Of a stretch of 64,000 nucleotides of DNA, positions 56,531 through 63,811 are shown piece by piece. The position numbers and the translations under genes were made by a program. The notes under the pieces were generated by a model. The model had not been told where the DNA came from and ran no database searches. It worked only from the letters and a program-made list of their open reading frames with translations. This stretch comes from a bacterium (GTDB taxonomy: Bacteria; Caldisericota; Caldisericia; Cryosericales; Cryosericaceae): positions 186,001 through 250,000 of the forward strand of contig JAJFTL010000022.1 in NCBI GenBank assembly GCA_021373025.1, in the 5' to 3' direction. Position 1 is the stretch's first letter; the number at the start of each line of letters is the position of its first letter.

Positions 56531-57535
56531 TTATACCAGAACCTCATGCAGTGAGTCGTAATGTTCAAGCACCTTGCCGGCGCCCTTGGCGACACACAGC
56601 AACGGATCCTCCGCGATGCTGACCAGGATGCCAGTACGCGTGGAAATAAACTTGTCGAGACCCATGATGAGTGCTCCGCCTCCCGACAGCATGATACCGC
56701 TGTCGATGATGTCTGCCGATAGCTCTGGCGGGGTCAGCTCAAGCGCCGACTTGATGGTGGCAAGGATTTGTTCCAGGGGCTCCTTCAGCGCGTCACGGAT
56801 CTCCTCGCTGGTGACATCGACCGCCTTAGGCAGGCCGTTGATCAAATCACGCCCCCGCACCTCATAGGTCCGTTCACTTTCGAGAGCGTATGCCGAACCG
56901 ATCGACAGCTTGACTTCTTCGGCCGTGACGTCGCCAATGAGCAGATTGTATCGACGGCGGATGTGCGTCGCTATTGCTTCTGTCATCTCGTCACCTGCGA
57001 TGCGCAGCGACCTCGATGTCACAATACCTTTCATGGAAATGACGGCGACCTCGGCCGTTCCGCCACCGACATCGACAATCATCACTCCACGAGCTTCAGC
57101 CACGGGAAGTTCCGCCCCGATGGCCGCAGCCATGGGTTCCTGAATCAGCTTTGCTTCGCGGGCGCCAGCGTTGAGTGCGGCATCAACGACAGCCTTCATC
57201 TCGACCTGAGTGATGCCTGAAGGAATGCCGATAAGCACGCGCGGCCTGGCAAAGAGTCCACTGCCCGACGCCTTGCGAATGAAGTATTCCAAAAGTTTTT
57301 CGGTGACGGTAAAATCTGCGATCACCCCATCCCGCAGCGGACGAGTGACGGTGATCGATTGAGGCGTACGCCCTGCCATCTTCTTGGCGTCATTGCCAAC
57401 GGCAAGGACGGTACCATTCTTGATGTCAGTTGCCACAATCGTGGGCTCTCGGATGACGACTCCCTTGTTCTTGACGTAGACGACGGTGTTCGCAGTACCA
57501 AGATCTATTGCCAGGTCCTTTGAGAAAAATGCCAC
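56531..57535 (-). CDS. mreB: Actin-like rod-shape protein MreB
   Basis: A 334-residue bacterial actin. Landmarks are DLGTANTVVYVK (residues 11-22, phosphate 1), VDVGGGTAEVAVIS (phosphate 2, about 160-172), the adenosine motif LSGGGALIMGLD near 287-298, and the C-terminal GKVLEH. It directs wall synthesis in rods. It is followed by mreC and preceded by maf at three bases spacing. Confidence 0.97.
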   Translation of the reverse strand: MAFFSKDLAIDLGTANTVVYVKNKGVVIREPTIVATDIKNGTVLAVGNDAKKMAGRTPQSITVTRPLRDGVIADFTVTEKLLEYFIRKASGSGLFARPRVLIGIPSGITQVEMKAVVDAALNAGAREAKLIQEPMAAAIGAELPVAEARGVMIVDVGGGTAEVAVISMKGIVTSRSLRIAGDEMTEAIATHIRRRYNLLIGDVTAEEVKLSIGSAYALESERTYEVRGRDLINGLPKAVDVTSEEIRDALKEPLEQILATIKSALELTPPELSADIIDSGIMLSGGGALIMGLDKFISTRTGILVSIAEDPLLCVAKGAGKVLEHYDSLHEVLV

Positions 57536-57538
57536 GGC

Positions 57539-58111
57539 TTACCTCCTCAGGTCAACGTTCAATTCGTTACAGAGCGCATAAAAATCGCTCATTGTGAAAC
57601 CGATGATCGTATCCATCGGCCCATCAATTCCTTCGATGAAACTTGCGGCCAGTCCCTGCACCGCATACGCACCGGCCTTGTCGGCATACTCCGGATTACA
57701 GAGGTACGCTTCGCGCTCGGCATTGCTCAGGCATCGCATCCTGACCACGGTCGTCGAGATTCTTGTAGCAATGCGTTCTTCAGGCATCCGCAGTCCGGCC
57801 ATGGCCGTGACGACTCGGTGTTCGTGCCCTTCAAGCAGAAGGAGCATGTTACGGGCCTCTGCCTTGTCGTGTGGCTTTCCCAGAATGTGGCCATCACTGG
57901 CCACAACCGTGTCGGCACCGATCACCAGGCCGTCGCGCACCTGCCTGCCGCCAGCCCTGGCCTTCGCGAGAGCATTCTGAAGGGCGCTGTCTCCGGGTGC
58001 TGCATCCAGCATGATCTCATCGACGTCTGTCTGGAGAATGGAGAACGATATGCCCCATTCGGTAAGCATATGAGCCCTGCGCGGTGACCCGGAAGCCAGG
58101 TAGATGTTCAT
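57539..58111 (-). CDS. maf: Maf family nucleotide pyrophosphatase
   Basis: A 190-residue Maf/Ham1-fold house-cleaning pyrophosphatase that removes noncanonical nucleoside triphosphates (dTTP/UTP-type specificity cannot be assigned). The start is LASGSPRR (5-12), followed by the EMLEDAAP-like loop region, GADTVV (about 65-70) and the C-terminal GIDGPMDTIIGF segment. The Maf Lys/Arg triad is present. Its stop is three bases from mreB and its start overlaps the DUF4321 gene by four bases. Confidence 0.93.
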   Translation of the reverse strand: MNIYLASGSPRRAHMLTEWGISFSILQTDVDEIMLDAAPGDSALQNALAKARAGGRQVRDGLVIGADTVVASDGHILGKPHDKAEARNMLLLLEGHEHRVVTAMAGLRMPEERIATRISTTVVRMRCLSNAEREAYLCNPEYADKAGAYAVQGLAASFIEGIDGPMDTIIGFTMSDFYALCNELNVDLRR

Positions 58112-58353
58112 AACAGCGTCGAGAAGAAGAGAAACAGCAGCGAGAGTCCGACAGTTCCAAGGTTCATGTTCAAGGTGAGCCCGAGGCGCAATTCCATGAA
58201 GCCAAGCTGGAGCGTGAAGTCAGGAATGCCAACGTGGAGGCCGGCCCTCATGAATGGATAATACGCGCCCAGCACCTCGCCCAGCACGGACCCGAGGATA
58301 GCTCCTGCAATAACAAAAAGAATGGAAGTTGCTCGCTCTTTTCTTCTCACCAC
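58108..58353 (-). CDS. DUF4321 membrane protein
   Basis: An 81-residue protein with two hydrophobic helices (about 8-28 and 60-80) and a polar middle (DFTLQLGFMELRLGLTLNMNLG). This DFTL...LxLGLxLxxNLxGxxG pattern is the DUF4321 signature, found in Clostridia and related anaerobes next to maf/mreB. Function unknown. It overlaps maf by four bases and the Gx transporter by seven. Confidence 0.8.
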   Translation of the reverse strand: MVRRKERATSILFVIAGAILGSVLGEVLGAYYPFMRAGLHVGIPDFTLQLGFMELRLGLTLNMNLGTVGLSLLFLFFSTLL

Positions 58354-58892
58354 AGCTCCATATGAATGCCGCCATGGAGGGCTCGATCAAGTCGAGACAG
58401 AATAGCAAGCGAGACTCCACCGATAAGGTATCCGGCAGCCCCGCCTGCTATCACCAGCGCTGGCAGATAATACCACAGTGTACCAACAGTATGGGTAATC
58501 AACAAGAGGAGGTATTGCGATACATTGTTGCACACTCCTCCAATTGTGCTGATCGTCGGAAGGCCGACCCGTCGGCCAAATACCTTCCGTACAAGCACCA
58601 TGACAACGACCGCTCCCAGGCTTCCGCCGAGGGAGAGAACCGACGTGATGGTCATCAGATTACCTTTGATGATGCCGGTGGCCAAAACCCGCAGGATGAC
58701 AAGGGCCACAGCTGCAAGCGTACCATACATTTCCAGGCACAGCATGGTGCTTATCTGGGAGAGTCCCAGTTTCGCCCCCGGTAGGAATGGCAACGGAGGA
58801 TCGAAGTAATTGATGGCGATGGCGACTGCTATGAGCAGCGCAAAGCGGAGGACCGTCTGCGTTGCTGGCCGTTTGCTATTGGGCGACAGCAT
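58347..58892 (-). CDS. Gx transporter / heptaprenyl diphosphate synthase component I-like membrane protein
   Basis: A 181-residue membrane protein with five to six helices. Motifs are PGAKLGLSQISTM (about 37-49), the LATGIIKGNLMTITSVLSLGGSLG segment and the GGVCNNVSQ loop. The Pfam-style name comes from gene neighbourhood with prenyl synthases; the fold resembles S components of ECF transporters, so it may bind a small substrate such as a quinone or flavin precursor. It overlaps the NusG-II gene by 17 bases. The same pair is common in clostridial and EET-type flavinylation loci. Confidence 0.8.
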   Translation of the reverse strand: MLSPNSKRPATQTVLRFALLIAVAIAINYFDPPLPFLPGAKLGLSQISTMLCLEMYGTLAAVALVILRVLATGIIKGNLMTITSVLSLGGSLGAVVVMVLVRKVFGRRVGLPTISTIGGVCNNVSQYLLLLITHTVGTLWYYLPALVIAGGAAGYLIGGVSLAILSRLDRALHGGIHMELW

Positions 58893-59247
58893 CTATCTGG
58901 GTTCCGTTTCCCTGAATCGTGATGACCATGCGATTTGGTACGCAGATGATCTGGTCTCCGGGGCTGCGGGCAGGCAGTGTGTGCACACAGATCTGATCTG
59001 GACAGGTCGACTCCGTGACCCGAATGGATCCCTGTCCATCGGCCACGATCACCAGCGGTCCTACCAGGCCCTCAATGTGTAGCGTCTGAGGTTCATCCGA
59101 GGTCAGGTCGACCGTGGCGACCACGGTGCCATTCACTCGTATCTCGCCCACAGACCCGTGGGTGCGGTGGCGTACGAACCGGCTTCCCAGGACAAGCGCA
59201 GCAGCTGTCAGAAGGATGATCCCGGTGATCCGGTCGCTTCTCTTCAT
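58876..59247 (-). CDS. NusG domain II-containing exported protein
   Basis: A 123-residue protein with an N-terminal transmembrane helix (about 8-26) and a beta domain with ESTCPDQICVHT and ICVPNRMVITI, the signature of the NusG-domain-II (KOW-like) secreted family. It is not the transcription factor NusG. Cys residues at about 83, 88 and 104 are conserved in the family. It is encoded between ApbE (four-base overlap) and the Gx transporter. Confidence 0.85.
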   Translation of the reverse strand: MKRSDRITGIILLTAAALVLGSRFVRHRTHGSVGEIRVNGTVVATVDLTSDEPQTLHIEGLVGPLVIVADGQGSIRVTESTCPDQICVHTLPARSPGDQIICVPNRMVITIQGNGTQIDAVAQ

Positions 59248-60275
59248 GGTCTGCTCTCCTGGGTCAGAGCAATAGGTCCCAATGTGAACACCGTTCCTGT
59301 GGCATCGACGATAACTGCACCGACGACGCCCTGGCTTCTGACGGCGTCGAACAGCGATCGCTGTCTCTGGGCGGTGGAACAGAAGAAGCTCTTTCCAAGA
59401 GCGTCACCATAGGCCCCGTGCATGGGCTCGATTGTTGTGATGAGTGTGACACTTTGATTGAGACTGCAAGGATAGCCCGTGGAGGGGTTGATGATGTGGC
59501 AGTATCTCTTGCCGTCTTTTTCGAAGTACCGCTCATAGTCGCCCGATGTCGCCACAAAGGCGTCGCCCGTGGTAACGTAGCCAATGATTCCCGCGCCGCG
59601 GGGATCCTGGATGCCCACTTTCCAGTTCGTTTTCCTCCCGCCACTGTACAGCAGGAGGTTGCCTCCAAAATTGACCACGACCTGTTTTGGTTGAGGCTTG
59701 ACGGTCGCGAGGTACTGTTCCATGACGTCGAGCGAGTAGCCCTTGGCGATGCCGCCCAGGTCGATGCGAGCTCGGGGATCCCGGAGCTGGGCCGTGGTGT
59801 CTGAAATCACCAGCTGGTCTGCATGGGAGTAGGCAAGAGCATCGGAGATTTCCTTCGCGTCGGGGACCCTGAAGTTCTTGGTAGTGAAGCCCCACAGGGA
59901 TGACACGGGCGAAATTGCTAGATCGAATGTCTTGCCATGGTCGATGTCTTCTACGGCCGCGGCAGTCCGCAGGAGTGACGCGTATTCCGGCGACACCGCA
60001 ACAGGGCCTTTGCCGGCGGCAGCATTCACGAGGGCAGTCTCCGACCCGGTCTTGTAGAAGCTGGTCATGTCTTCGACGTGGGAGGCCAGGGCATGCAGCT
60101 GTTCATTGATGGAGGCAGCGTTGCCGCCAGTGGTGGTGACCGTCAGAACGGTATCCATAAGGAAGTATGTGGATGATACCGGCTGGGGCGAGCTGTGCCG
60201 GGCGGCGATACTCGCGACTCCGGCACCGATGATGGCCAGGATGATGACGGCGAGAATGACCTTCTTTCTCTCCAT
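59244..60275 (-). CDS. apbE: FAD:protein FMN transferase ApbE
   Basis: A 343-residue exported transferase that attaches FMN from FAD to Thr/Ser residues of target proteins. An N-terminal signal anchor (about residues 5-22) is followed by the ApbE fold: MDTVLTVTTTG, DLAISPVSSLWGF, the Mg/FAD-binding IDLGGIAKGYSLD (about 185-197), and TSGDYERYF. ATG 60275 was preferred; the longer frame overlaps the radical SAM gene by over 100 bases. The DxxxGxxxxT-type FMN target motif was not found in neighbouring proteins, so the acceptor is unknown. Confidence 0.93.
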   Translation of the reverse strand: MERKKVILAVIILAIIGAGVASIAARHSSPQPVSSTYFLMDTVLTVTTTGGNAASINEQLHALASHVEDMTSFYKTGSETALVNAAAGKGPVAVSPEYASLLRTAAAVEDIDHGKTFDLAISPVSSLWGFTTKNFRVPDAKEISDALAYSHADQLVISDTTAQLRDPRARIDLGGIAKGYSLDVMEQYLATVKPQPKQVVVNFGGNLLLYSGGRKTNWKVGIQDPRGAGIIGYVTTGDAFVATSGDYERYFEKDGKRYCHIINPSTGYPCSLNQSVTLITTIEPMHGAYGDALGKSFFCSTAQRQRSLFDAVRSQGVVGAVIVDATGTVFTLGPIALTQESRP

Positions 60276-60277
60276 GG

Positions 60278-61171
60278 CTACCTTGTGTTGAGAATCAGCT
60301 CGAGGTCTGTCCCGCACTGTGCACACTTGCCGTCCGTGACAAATGACAGGTCCGGTGGCTGGACCGTACGGTCGATAACTACCGAAAAGCAGTTGGGACA
60401 CATCGTATTATTGAAGAAGTGCCCATGGCAGTTGCTGAGATAGACAAAGCCAACGTGCTGCTTTCGTGCCAGCTCCACCAGATTCTCGAGAAACGATGTT
60501 GACGGTCCATGCTGAATGGCAAATCCATGTTCGGGCGCTATCGCCCGCAAGTGCAGCGGAATATTCCTCCGAAGATCATGATTGATCCACGCGAGCATAT
60601 TCAGGTACTCTGCTTCTTCAGCTGGAGTGTCACGGACGACGTCGAGCATCAGTTCTACATGAATGCCAGATTCAATGGCCTTTTCGACGAGGGAGCAACT
60701 GTTTGACAGCAAGGCATCGGGACCTCCCCGTGAGCGATATGTCTCTTCGGAGAAACCCTTGAACTGAACAAGAAGCGCGTCGATCATCCCTGGCGAATCG
60801 TGAAGAAGGTCCGCGGTCAATCCCCCATTTGTTGCGACGATGACGCTCATGCCGGTATCAAGTACTACACGTGAATTCTCTACCACATTATCCCAATGCA
60901 GGGCCGGCTCCCCTCCGCCCCATACGATTCCCCGAAAGCGAGGATCCTGGGCCAACTGTTCCATGGCACTTGCCAGTCGTTGTGGGTCGTAGGGCGACCA
61001 GGACGCAGAACCCGCCAGCTCGGGGCGATCGCAGTATTGACAACGTAGAGGGCATCCAGGTATTTCGAGAACGAGGACTGAAGCTCCGGGATAAAAGTGA
61101 TACAGAGGCACCTCTTCTATATTTGTGATGTATGGCTGCCCCAGAGGGGTGGAAAGCCTATCAAATCTCAT
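60278..61171 (-). CDS. Radical SAM protein with C-terminal zinc ribbon (AmmeMemoRadiSam-like)
   Basis: A 297-residue radical SAM enzyme. The cluster motif is CPLRCQYC (about residues 40-47, in IPGCPLRCQYCDRPE). The activase-like core follows (VWGGGEPALHWDN, LVQFKGFSEETYRSRGG), and the C terminus has two CxxC pairs (MCPNC, KCAQC) forming a zinc-ribbon-like site. It resembles the pyruvate-formate-lyase-activating or AmmeMemoRadiSam-type enzymes, but the identity of the protein or small-molecule target is not known. It sits upstream of apbE in the same direction with a two-base gap. Confidence 0.75.
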   Translation of the reverse strand: MRFDRLSTPLGQPYITNIEEVPLYHFYPGASVLVLEIPGCPLRCQYCDRPELAGSASWSPYDPQRLASAMEQLAQDPRFRGIVWGGGEPALHWDNVVENSRVVLDTGMSVIVATNGGLTADLLHDSPGMIDALLVQFKGFSEETYRSRGGPDALLSNSCSLVEKAIESGIHVELMLDVVRDTPAEEAEYLNMLAWINHDLRRNIPLHLRAIAPEHGFAIQHGPSTSFLENLVELARKQHVGFVYLSNCHGHFFNNTMCPNCFSVVIDRTVQPPDLSFVTDGKCAQCGTDLELILNTR

Positions 61172-61312: not shown

Positions 61313-61891
61313 TCATATACGTATTCCTTGTCCAGACTGGGTCTCAACCATTTCAATGCCAAGGTCCAGCGCTTGCATGTTGAGATTCAGGAACTGCTTC
61401 TTGACATGCATTGCAACTGCCTCGCGAAGAGACTCGACGCGGACGATGGATGTCAGTCCCTGAATGATGCCCAGCAGCGCAACGTTCAAGCCAAGTTCCG
61501 ACTGTAGCCTTGCTACGACAGTGTTGCGGATGGGTAGGGCTACTAGGCCCCGGCAGTTCTCTTCATCAAGCAAGTCCGGAATTGCCATCACTGATGAGTC
61601 AATGATGACTTCAGTTCTGCGGCTGATTCCTCCGCCATATTGCTTGAGCCCCTCGTTGGTCATGGCAGCAAGCAGGTCCGGGTCGGTGACTTTTGGATAG
61701 GCAATATGCCTGTCCGACACGATCAGCTCTGCCTTCGTCGTTCCACCACGTGCCTCTGCCCCATACACCTGGCTTTGGGTAACAGTCTTTCCCTCCAACA
61801 TGGCAGCTTCCGCGAGGATGATAGAAGCAAGAATAAGTCCCTGTCCTCCGCTCCCGGTCATACGGAGTTCGAAGCGCTTGTCACTTTCCAT
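61313..61891 (-). CDS. korC: 2-oxoacid:ferredoxin oxidoreductase subunit gamma
   Basis: A 192-residue subunit. The N-terminal RMTGSGGQGLILASIILAEAA and GAEARGGTTKAELIVS signatures identify the gamma/C subunit of 2-oxoglutarate/2-oxoacid:ferredoxin oxidoreductase. ATG 61891 lies one base after the beta stop. A longer frame to 62209 runs through the beta gene and is not real. It is the last gene of the korDABC set, in the order delta, alpha, beta, gamma. Confidence 0.93.
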   Translation of the reverse strand: MESDKRFELRMTGSGGQGLILASIILAEAAMLEGKTVTQSQVYGAEARGGTTKAELIVSDRHIAYPKVTDPDLLAAMTNEGLKQYGGGISRRTEVIIDSSVMAIPDLLDEENCRGLVALPIRNTVVARLQSELGLNVALLGIIQGLTSIVRVESLREAVAMHVKKQFLNLNMQALDLGIEMVETQSGQGIRI

Positions 61892-61892
61892 C

Positions 61893-62687
61893 TCAGGCCT
61901 GCTCCTTGGGCGCTTCACCGCTCTGAGCGGGGTTGCGCTCGATATTGACGAATTCCCCGATGACCGTCTTTCCGACCAGTTCTTCGGGGGTCTTCTTGTC
62001 GGCCACCGATTTGAGGACCATCCAGTCTTTCTGCGATACGAGCATCTGTCCGGCACTCCCCTTCTTGTTGAACCTGCCAAAGTACGTGGGGCATTGCGCA
62101 ACAGCGTCGACAAGTGAAAAGCCATGGTGTGCAATCGCTTTTCTGATGTGATCCACCATGTGTTTAGTGAAGTAGATGCCCGACCTTGCGACATATGTGG
62201 CGCCGGCACCGGCAGCCAGATTCACAAGGTCAAATGGTCGGTCAAGGGTCCCATTCGGTGCTGTCGTCGTAATGCTGGAAACCGGCGTCAGCGGTGATCC
62301 CTGTCCTCCTGTCATGCCGTAATTAAAGTTGTTGAAGACAATCACTGTGATATCCACGTCGCGGCGTGCGGCGTGAATGAGATGATTGCCGCCAATGGCG
62401 GAACTGTCTCCGTCGCCTGTGACGACGATGACGGTTAGGTCTGGATTGGCCAGCTTGATACCGGTCGCAACAGGGATCGCACGACCGTGCAGCGTATGGA
62501 CATTGTCGAAGGCGGTATAGGCAGGCGCCCGGGATGAACATCCGATGCCTGATACCAGTACGACCTTGTCGGGGTCGAGTTTCAACTGATCGATTGCTTC
62601 GAGGAGGGCCCGAAGAACAATGCCATTTCCACAGCCTGGGCACCAGATGTTGGGAAGTCGCTCACTGCGTAGAGCGTCGAGTTTCAT
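61893..62687 (-). CDS. korB: 2-oxoacid:ferredoxin oxidoreductase subunit beta
   Basis: A 264-residue TPP-binding subunit. CPGCGNGIVLRALLEAI (about 18-34), GIGCSSRAP, and the TPP/Mg motif GDGDSSAIGGNHLIHAARR (about 90-108) and NNFNYGMTGGQ are visible. It binds thiamine diphosphate and, with alpha, decarboxylates a 2-oxoacid. Overlaps korA by four bases. The C terminus has the usual QMLVSQKDW region and ends in a short acidic tail. Confidence 0.95.
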   Translation of the reverse strand: MKLDALRSERLPNIWCPGCGNGIVLRALLEAIDQLKLDPDKVVLVSGIGCSSRAPAYTAFDNVHTLHGRAIPVATGIKLANPDLTVIVVTGDGDSSAIGGNHLIHAARRDVDITVIVFNNFNYGMTGGQGSPLTPVSSITTTAPNGTLDRPFDLVNLAAGAGATYVARSGIYFTKHMVDHIRKAIAHHGFSLVDAVAQCPTYFGRFNKKGSAGQMLVSQKDWMVLKSVADKKTPEELVGKTVIGEFVNIERNPAQSGEAPKEQA

Positions 62688-63811
62688 AGGTTCTCCTCCT
62701 TGACAAAGCTGAGGATTTCCTGGGGACTAATGAGATCGCCATTGATCTTGTTCATGGGCACGATCTGGCGAGAGTCCCCGAAGACTCGCTTGATAAGAAG
62801 GACAAGCTGACCGGAGTTCAACTCGGGCACGACAACGGTTCGAGCATGACCAGCAGCGCTGCGCACACGGTCGTCATCGAATGGAAACAGGGTGATGAAT
62901 CGGAGCGACCCAGCCTTCCGGCCCTGTGAGCGAAGCGATTCGACCGCTTCGCTCACGGCCCGGGCCGTGATGCCAAAGCTCATGAACACGATGTCGGCAT
63001 CCTCGACCCGATCGCTCTCATACTGGATAATGTCATCCAGATTGTTGAACAGCTTGTCGCGCAGGCGTTCGATAAGCGCCTCCGCGACGTGCCCGTTTGC
63101 CGTCTGGAATCCTGATTCATTGTGCACGAGACCGGTAAAGCTTGTCCGATAGCCTGTACCGAGGTTGGCGATAGTGGGAATCAACGAGGCGTCCGTCTTG
63201 TACGGGAGGTATCCTGTCTTGTCGACCGGGAGCTTCCGCTCCACGAGTGTCGGTGTTGTGCTTGTGTCGATCGGTTCGCGCAAATGAGAGATCGTCTCAT
63301 CGGACAGGAGGATGACTGGATTCCTGTACTTCTCTGCCAGGTTGACCGCACGAATGGTCAGCTGGTAGGATTCTTCCACACTGGATGGTGAAAGGACGAT
63401 GATCCAGTGATCACCGTGAGTTCCCCACCGCGTCTGCATCAAATCCATCTGCGAGACTTTTGTCGGCATGCCTGTGGAGGGGCCATAGCGCATGGACTCG
63501 AGAATGACGATGGGAGCCTCGATCATGCACGCGTAGCCAAGACCCTCCTGCATCAGGGAGAAGCCAGGTCCCGATGTGGCGGTCAGGACCTTCTTGCCAG
63601 CCAGGGACGCACCGATAATGGCCATAATGCTCGAGATTTCGTCCTCCATCTGGATAAAGGTGCCGCCCACCTGTGGCATGCGCCTGGCCATGACCTCGGC
63701 GATTTCCGAGGATGGCGTGATAGGGTAGCCTGCAAAAAAGCGCACGCCTGCTGCGAGGGCTCCTTCAGCGACGGCTTCATTGCCTTGCATCAACACCACG
63801 CGCTCACTCAT
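62684..63811 (-). CDS. korA: 2-oxoacid:ferredoxin oxidoreductase subunit alpha
   Basis: A 375-residue subunit. QGNEAVAEGALAAGVRFFAGYPITPSSEI (about 9-36), EDEISSIMAIIGASLAGKK and the TSGPGFSLMQE signature identify it as the alpha/KorA subunit; the tetramer uses four different polypeptides as in the KorDABC type. Substrate preference (2-oxoglutarate, branched-chain or pyruvate) cannot be read from the sequence. The start overlaps the delta stop by eight bases. Confidence 0.95.
   Translation of the reverse strand: MSERVVLMQGNEAVAEGALAAGVRFFAGYPITPSSEIAEVMARRMPQVGGTFIQMEDEISSIMAIIGASLAGKKVLTATSGPGFSLMQEGLGYACMIEAPIVILESMRYGPSTGMPTKVSQMDLMQTRWGTHGDHWIIVLSPSSVEESYQLTIRAVNLAEKYRNPVILLSDETISHLREPIDTSTTPTLVERKLPVDKTGYLPYKTDASLIPTIANLGTGYRTSFTGLVHNESGFQTANGHVAEALIERLRDKLFNNLDDIIQYESDRVEDADIVFMSFGITARAVSEAVESLRSQGRKAGSLRFITLFPFDDDRVRSAAGHARTVVVPELNSGQLVLLIKRVFGDSRQIVPMNKINGDLISPQEILSFVKEENL

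Follow-up and report, generated by a model that had tools for sequence, protein, structure and literature searches.

In a window of 64,000 nucleotides from a Cryosericum genome (GenBank assembly GCA_021373025.1, contig JAJFTL010000022.1, positions 186,001 to 250,000), a radical SAM gene is followed by genes encoding an ApbE-type flavin adenine dinucleotide (FAD):protein flavin mononucleotide (FMN) transferase, a NusG_II-domain protein, a Gx (PF07456) membrane protein and a small DUF4321-like protein. We consider it probable that ApbE, the NusG_II protein and the PF07456 protein, an EetB homolog, constitute an FAD-export and FMN-transfer module that serves the Rnf complex and a lipoprotein, and that the radical SAM protein is a repurposed enzyme which the module does not need. 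The flavinylation system represents a variant of an already known type, and sequence comparison indicates that the radical SAM protein is most likely a repurposed AmmeMemoRadiSam enzyme residing in a conserved neighborhood. In the labels used here G denotes genomes and L loci, and f2 to f7 are other families of the same class.

The module reading depends on the membrane protein. PF07456 is the eetB family (PMC9973259, here and below for the portion of its text consulted) and thus the ApbE-NusG_II-EetB set can be assigned, with good support from family membership, to a known kind of FAD-export and FMN-transfer module. Listeria EetB binds FAD and together with FmnA is required for the flavin export that serves the ApbE-type transferase FmnB, and no extracellular electron transfer phenotype was reported for the eetA deletion; eetB occurs in the vicinity of eetA (3,328 genomes), of apbE (2,169 genomes) and of Rnf genes (572 Clostridia genomes) (PMC9973259). 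At the window locus the NusG_II gene directly precedes eetB, and the same pair stands side by side in an annotated Clostridia record (Monoglobus). EetA is presumably a NusG_II protein. Its Pfam family is not named in the consulted text of PMC9973259, and literature searches combining eetA, NusG and extracellular electron transfer, or Gx, NusG_II and ApbE, found nothing.

The genome (1.6 Mb in 64 contigs) contains one PF02361 T-subunit gene, at a ribosomal locus on contig C52, with two ATP-binding cassette ATPase open reading frames (ORFs) just upstream (recognized by eye), an arrangement that constitutes an energy-coupling factor (ECF) A-A'-T set. The ribosomal locus is the usual site of the shared ECF module. 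EetB, powered by this shared ATPase and T-subunit, would export FAD, and membrane-anchored ApbE, facing outward, would split FAD and link FMN to a threonine of exported domains, with the NusG_II protein acting as a putative EetB accessory. Like the Listeria system of EetB, FmnA, FmnB and PplA, Cryosericum has a NusG_II/EetA-like partner (given our assumption regarding the EetA domain) and a lipoprotein with two FMN_bind domains. A Listeria-type extracellular electron transfer locus clusters Ndh2, the demethylmenaquinone genes and PplA; of these parts the PplA-like lipoprotein alone was seen, and it is unlinked (no search was aimed at a Listeria-type NADH dehydrogenase). The PF07456 FAD-export subunit and the ApbE-type transferase are also shared with Listeria (PMC9973259 and PMC8906456, in the parts consulted). 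Unlike the Listeria system, the Cryosericum module has no dedicated T-subunit alongside, has its targets on other contigs, neighbors maf-mre genes, occurs together with Rnf and has an altered ApbE metal site.

An earlier note on this DNA had proposed that the set may flavinylate or modify an exported redox carrier encoded elsewhere, and a profile search of the genome for FMN_bind domains agrees with this proposal and with the identity of the module. Two genes were found, both on other contigs and each encoding two domains with one target motif apiece, and an ApbE lacking a target in its own genome was thereby rejected. One is the RnfG gene, situated within a full RnfCDGEAB operon (L036:4434-9847; its ORFs were assigned by eye), in which the motifs are ITSATITS and VSGATFSS, fitting [S/T]-x-A-T. 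The other encodes a 232-residue lipoprotein-like protein resembling PplA, with the motifs SQATGTS and SKATGTS; the RnfG motifs are the closer to canonical. Six sampled congener FMN_bind genes likewise have two motifs each, and the sampled f2, f3 and f5 genes have one each (identity as RnfG was checked for G016 and the f5 genes only). Two domains in RnfG are not a novelty, as Rnf clusters with a multi-flavinylated RnfG are already described in the part of PMC8238504 consulted. The targets would be RnfG with its two FMN_bind domains, probably RnfD, and the PplA-like lipoprotein, and with such targets the module would therefore mature the Rnf ferredoxin:NAD+ pump, the extra flavin domain of which could act as an outward electron relay to the lipoprotein or a different acceptor. 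Caldisericia thereby gain an EetB-type FAD exporter that likely serves Rnf, with named candidate targets.

The tie to Rnf comes from gene order in f5, where Rnf genes, one large exported-looking ORF, ApbE, EetB and mreB stand in a row at all four loci read (G018, G022, G026 and G030; in the last two the Rnf operon is cut by the end of the stretch read). This is a cluster of the kind reported in Clostridia, in which eetB and apbE accompany Rnf (PMC9973259), whereas the window genome has its Rnf genes apart from the module and carries two FMN_bind domains in RnfG. The large f5 ORF, about 780-970 residues and situated between RnfB and ApbE at 4/4 loci (L278:6667-9462, L134:11148-13496, L137:2500-5079 and L183:3536-6434), may encode an uncharacterized Rnf partner.

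In a set of 61 genomes, whose relatedness makes the counts non-independent, ApbE was detected in 46 genomes, PF07456 in 44 and FMN_bind in 46. PF07456 and ApbE agree in 59 of the 61 (the exceptions are G057 and G059), and ApbE and FMN_bind agree in 55, with both present in 43 and neither in 12. ApbE, EetB and FMN_bind thus largely co-occur. The radical SAM gene does not track them, its class-level counterpart being kept beside maf in a family that has none of the three.

In the consulted part of PMC8906456 the FmnB magnesium is held by D301, S304 and A187, plus T305 in the ATP complex, and replacing residues of this kind by alanine strongly lowered activity or eliminated it. The Cryosericum ApbE retains the catalytic Asp, Ser and His, corresponding by motif to FmnB D301, S257 and H273. 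The aligned DxxST motif reads DALGK in 12/12 Cryosericum copies compared, and the Thr is kept in all 26 other rows (25 distinct genes, L184 and L278 being the same gene). This comparison includes the G005 copy (L123); the pieces truncated by contig ends (L043, L049) and the incomplete copies in G003, G008 and G010 were left out. A review, in the part consulted, calls only the catalytic-center Ser, His and Asp conserved (PMC12052999) and thus the change from Ser-Thr to Gly-Lys may be tolerated; the lysine might take over the role of a metal charge, or activity might be reduced. We found no earlier description of this natural variant, which affects the metal site that is important for activity in FmnB. 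Note that congener G002 has a second, canonical ApbE gene beside a flavodoxin-like ORF and a gene for a single FMN_bind protein (L281:6583-8552).

The radical SAM protein, called unassigned in the earlier note, does have a nearest model. Its best NCBIfam match is TIGR04337 (AmmeMemoRadiSam, amrS), at 110.2 bits against a cut-off of 220, over model positions 54-329 of 349. A plain AmmeMemoRadiSam enzyme was rejected because this is half the cut-off score; the most divergent congener copy scores the same as the window copy, and four full-length counterparts from the class score 284-310 bits. The radical SAM core and the C-terminal Cys4 ribbon align with the model, whereas the N-terminal Cys domain is lacking, conserved motifs are changed and MEMO and AMMECR1 do not adjoin. 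The same genome has a canonical trio of radical SAM, MEMO and AMMECR1 genes on contig C47, the radical SAM enzyme of which scores 339 bits and is 27% identical to the window copy, which lacks its Cys-rich N-terminus. This trio is present in 14 of 15 genus genomes (the window's own plus 14 congeners).

The divergent gene is nevertheless maintained. It occurs in 12 of the 14 congeners at 58-72% identity (57-72% to the window copy when the 13 copies were compared), and the 13 copies share 114 invariant columns, among them the three cysteines of CxxxCxxC and the four C-terminal cysteines (both sets invariant in 13/13), as well as conserved motifs of their own. The median ratio of nonsynonymous to synonymous substitution rates (dN/dS) in the genus was 0.14 for a score-filtered set in which 44 of 78 pairs were usable and 34 were dropped as saturated or unsolvable. 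A pseudogene was rejected given this ratio, which indicates purifying selection, and the frame open in 13 genomes. The predicted structure (mean predicted local distance difference test score 63) matches radical SAM enzymes in general. A scan of named genomes with two short peptide patterns, which distant relatives could escape, gave 11 loci of 57-72% identity, all in Candidatus Cryosericum or Caldiserica/Caldisericota metagenome-assembled genomes, which places the window in that lineage. A separate scan of viral contigs gave no relative. The literature searched yielded no functional study of the AmmeMemoRadiSam family and no earlier description of the Cryosericum derivative, and the main text of the flavinylation papers examined makes no mention of radical SAM.

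ApbE directly follows the radical SAM gene in all 13 genus genomes that carry the latter (two of these contigs, at L043 and L049, end inside ApbE) and the downstream order is the same in all 13 as far as each contig reaches, which rules out a chance grouping. In G008 and G010 there is a partial ApbE match, apparently cut by a contig end, and the radical SAM stretch lies outside view. In f2 and f3 a full-length AmmeMemoRadiSam-family enzyme is encoded directly before ApbE in 21/21 genomes in which both were found, and NusG_II and EetB come next at the 16 loci read (16/16), followed by maf where the contig is long enough. AMMECR1, where found in these families, is on a separate contig or about 14 kb away. 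In contrast, the f4 counterpart directly precedes maf in five of five genomes without ApbE, PF07456 or FMN_bind, and f7 has the counterpart without these three in another 5/5 (in G049 the gene is in fragments). The converse is seen in f5 and f6, where ApbE and EetB occur without an adjoining radical SAM gene. In G028 the radical SAM gene at the ApbE locus is in two pieces (L129:10177-11198), owing to a sequencing error or a broken gene.

In a tree of 71 rows scoring >250 (the second piece at L129 and fragments or further copies in L182, L185 and L192-L195 were left out) the Cryosericum window-type copies form one group, separated from the rest by about five changes per column (3.26 + 1.73 on either side of the midpoint root), and the canonical Cryosericum copies group with G058 and G059 of other phyla. 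With the window copies constrained to join f3 or f2, the resulting trees beat that of the free search by 4.6 log units. Because of the tree and the synteny we favor descent of the window enzyme from the resident copy of the class, the trio having been acquired. A resident AmmeMemoRadiSam-type enzyme would have been freed once Cryosericum gained a second, complete trio, and would then have shed the N-terminal domain and switched to a new substrate, being dispensable for the flavinylation chemistry.

Several observations weigh against this combined reading. FAD binding and outward transport by EetB are established for the Listeria protein alone, and in Cryosericum we infer them from homology. 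In the window genome no module gene adjoins the proposed targets; the PplA-like motifs carry Gln or Lys at the canonical Gly, where the first RnfG motif carries Ser; and an f6 locus has ApbE and EetB with no Rnf operon nearby (L135). Six of the 61 genomes break the pairing of transferase and target, three having ApbE without FMN_bind (G003, G006 and G057) and three FMN_bind without ApbE (G036, G042 and G047), although five of the six are assemblies 55-80% complete (G057 is rated 100%). Judging from its sequence, the activity of the Cryosericum ApbE is uncertain because the Ser and Thr that help to hold the FmnB magnesium are replaced. In regard to the radical SAM enzyme, its Cryosericum form was always found beside ApbE, and a tree placing the window and canonical Cryosericum copies together, although 12.8 log units worse, is not rejected (approximately unbiased test, p 0.17).

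Should the radical SAM enzyme be a working part of the module, it could, before export, carry out a cytosolic modification of EetA, EetB, ApbE, the exported flavoprotein or a flavin carrier. The constant adjacency to ApbE in the 13 Cryosericum genomes and the 21 f2/f3 genomes, with NusG_II and EetB next, accords with such a role, as does a second phylum, that of G056, where nine genomes of at least 90% completeness each have one or two AmmeMemoRadiSam-type enzymes above the cut-off. There a separate, second-type copy directly precedes NusG_II and PF07456 at five of eight loci (G056, G061, G066, G067 and G068), the other three being unlinked (G063, G064 and G065). Since a related enzyme precedes NusG_II-EetB at these five loci, a functional link is possible but unproven. 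The remaining evidence argues otherwise. The ten f4 and f7 genomes keep the enzyme without ApbE, EetB or FMN_bind, f5 and f6 have ApbE and EetB without it alongside, and in the G058 phylum (completeness filter 80, 34 PF07456 matches, 30 with loci examined) no AmmeMemoRadiSam-type gene was seen at any of the 30 loci, most with 1.5 kb flanks. Nor was one present in four longer stretches from that phylum (two with ApbE-NusG_II-Gx) or near one annotated Clostridia NusG_II-Gx pair. The longer stretches L273 and L274, which extend L244 and L245, showed none; the G054 phylum contributed one genome at the completeness filter used. Retention of the enzyme without ApbE or FMN targets is true of its class-level counterpart (10/10, G049 fragmented) but not of the Cryosericum copy. 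Membership of the enzyme in a flavinylation set is not established, given the f4 and f7 counterparts, and we consider a working role in the module unlikely. The broader proposal, that AmmeMemoRadiSam-type enzymes act on flavin export or flavinylation with radical SAM-(ApbE)-NusG_II-EetB as their signature in two phyla, and that Cryosericum then evolved a stripped version, a lysine-site ApbE and a two-flavin RnfG, seems to us rather improbable. We keep the link to flavins at this low probability: it is seen in both phyla, yet several families lack it. The AmmeMemoRadiSam family nonetheless gains a concrete genomic link to flavin export, together with genomes in which the link is broken.

At the other extreme, the gene could be a decaying, functionless leftover. 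Loss of the N-terminal domain, the long branch and a canonical copy elsewhere in the genome would be expected of such a relic, but the frame is open in 13 genomes, with extensive invariant positions and distinctive conserved motifs, and purifying selection acts on it; we regard decay as very improbable. A further alternative concerns the targets and differs from the Rnf-centered reading mainly in emphasis, namely that the module, as in Listeria, serves chiefly outward electron transfer via the PplA-like lipoprotein and less the Rnf pump. The genome does encode EetB and a PplA-like lipoprotein containing two FMN_bind domains, and several congeners have FMN_bind matches on contigs besides that of the twin-domain gene. 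However, Rnf lies near ApbE-EetB in f5 and the RnfG motifs are nearer to canonical, and we therefore think it doubtful that the lipoprotein is the chief client. The preferred reading remains an FAD-export and FMN-transfer module serving Rnf and the lipoprotein, with a repurposed radical SAM enzyme as its neighbor.

Features of the window locus and the basis of each assignment
Feature	Position	Strand	Basis
Radical SAM protein, 297 aa, C-terminal Cys4 zinc-ribbon-like motif; divergent AmmeMemoRadiSam-type, without N-terminal domain	60278..61171	-	PF04055 65.2 bits (cut-off 29.5); TIGR04337 110.2 bits and alignment with canonical copy
ApbE (FAD:protein FMN transferase), 343 aa from ATG; N-terminal membrane anchor; metal site Gly-Lys replacing Ser-Thr	59244..60275	-	PF02424 206.7 bits; anchor by eye; metal site by motif comparison
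NusG_II-domain protein, EetA-like, 123 aa, N-terminal membrane anchor	58876..59247	-	PF07009 86.2 bits; anchor by eye
Gx/PF07456 membrane protein, EetB-like FAD-export substrate-binding subunit, 181 aa	58347..58892	-	PF07456 91.3 bits (cut-off 30)
DUF4321-like small membrane protein, 81 aa	58108..58353	-	PF14209 24.2 bits, just below cut-off 27
maf, downstream neighbor	57539..58111	-	PF02545 158.8 bits
mreB, downstream neighbor, then mreC, mreD, PBP2	56531..57535	-	ORF list and synteny; mre/PBP2 names by eye
korA-korB-korG, 2-oxoacid:ferredoxin oxidoreductase, upstream	61313..63811	-	POR and TPP_enzyme_C domains (korG, korB); korA by eye

On the minus strand the order is korA-korB-korG, radical SAM, ApbE, NusG_II, Gx, DUF4321-like, maf, mreB, mreC, mreD and PBP2. 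The layout proposed earlier, five genes nearly touching one another and running into maf and mreB, was borne out by frames, Pfam matches and coordinates. The five frames from radical SAM to DUF4321-like are all open, the ApbE ATG lies two bases past the radical SAM stop, and the following genes as far as maf and mreB abut or overlap by a few bases. Radical SAM, ApbE, NusG_II, Gx and maf score above their Pfam cut-offs; the DUF4321 assignment is weak, its Pfam score falling short. The NusG_II protein resembles the solved chains 4esn, 4obi, 2kpp and 3ld7. A promoter scan gave one site versus 2.5 in shuffled sequences, and there were six terminator-like sites versus 2.7 (standard deviation 1.8).

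The attachment to maf and mreB is gene layout and not a demonstrated functional tie. The DUF4321-like gene adjoins maf in the genus and in f3, and DUF4321 and mre genes are present at f3 loci but were not found at f2 loci. Because an ApbE-less f7 genome (L213) likewise has DUF4321-maf-mre, DUF4321 seems to travel with maf-mre rather than with flavinylation. In that f7 stretch some 2.2 kb separate AMMECR1 from DUF4321-maf-mreB downstream of it (L213:3055-6636), a further case of proximity between AmmeMemoRadiSam and maf-mre genes. The upstream korABG genes are conserved in the congeners and, among the class loci read, stand beside this locus in Cryosericum only, none being found at the f2 and f3 loci. 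In the second phylum, G066 has kor-like genes about 1.8 kb before its canonical AmmeMemoRadiSam radical SAM gene (L203:2244-7758). The radical SAM-NusG_II-PF07456 loci of that phylum include L140:9012-10862, L197-L199 and L201, and in G056 the ApbE gene is on a separate contig.

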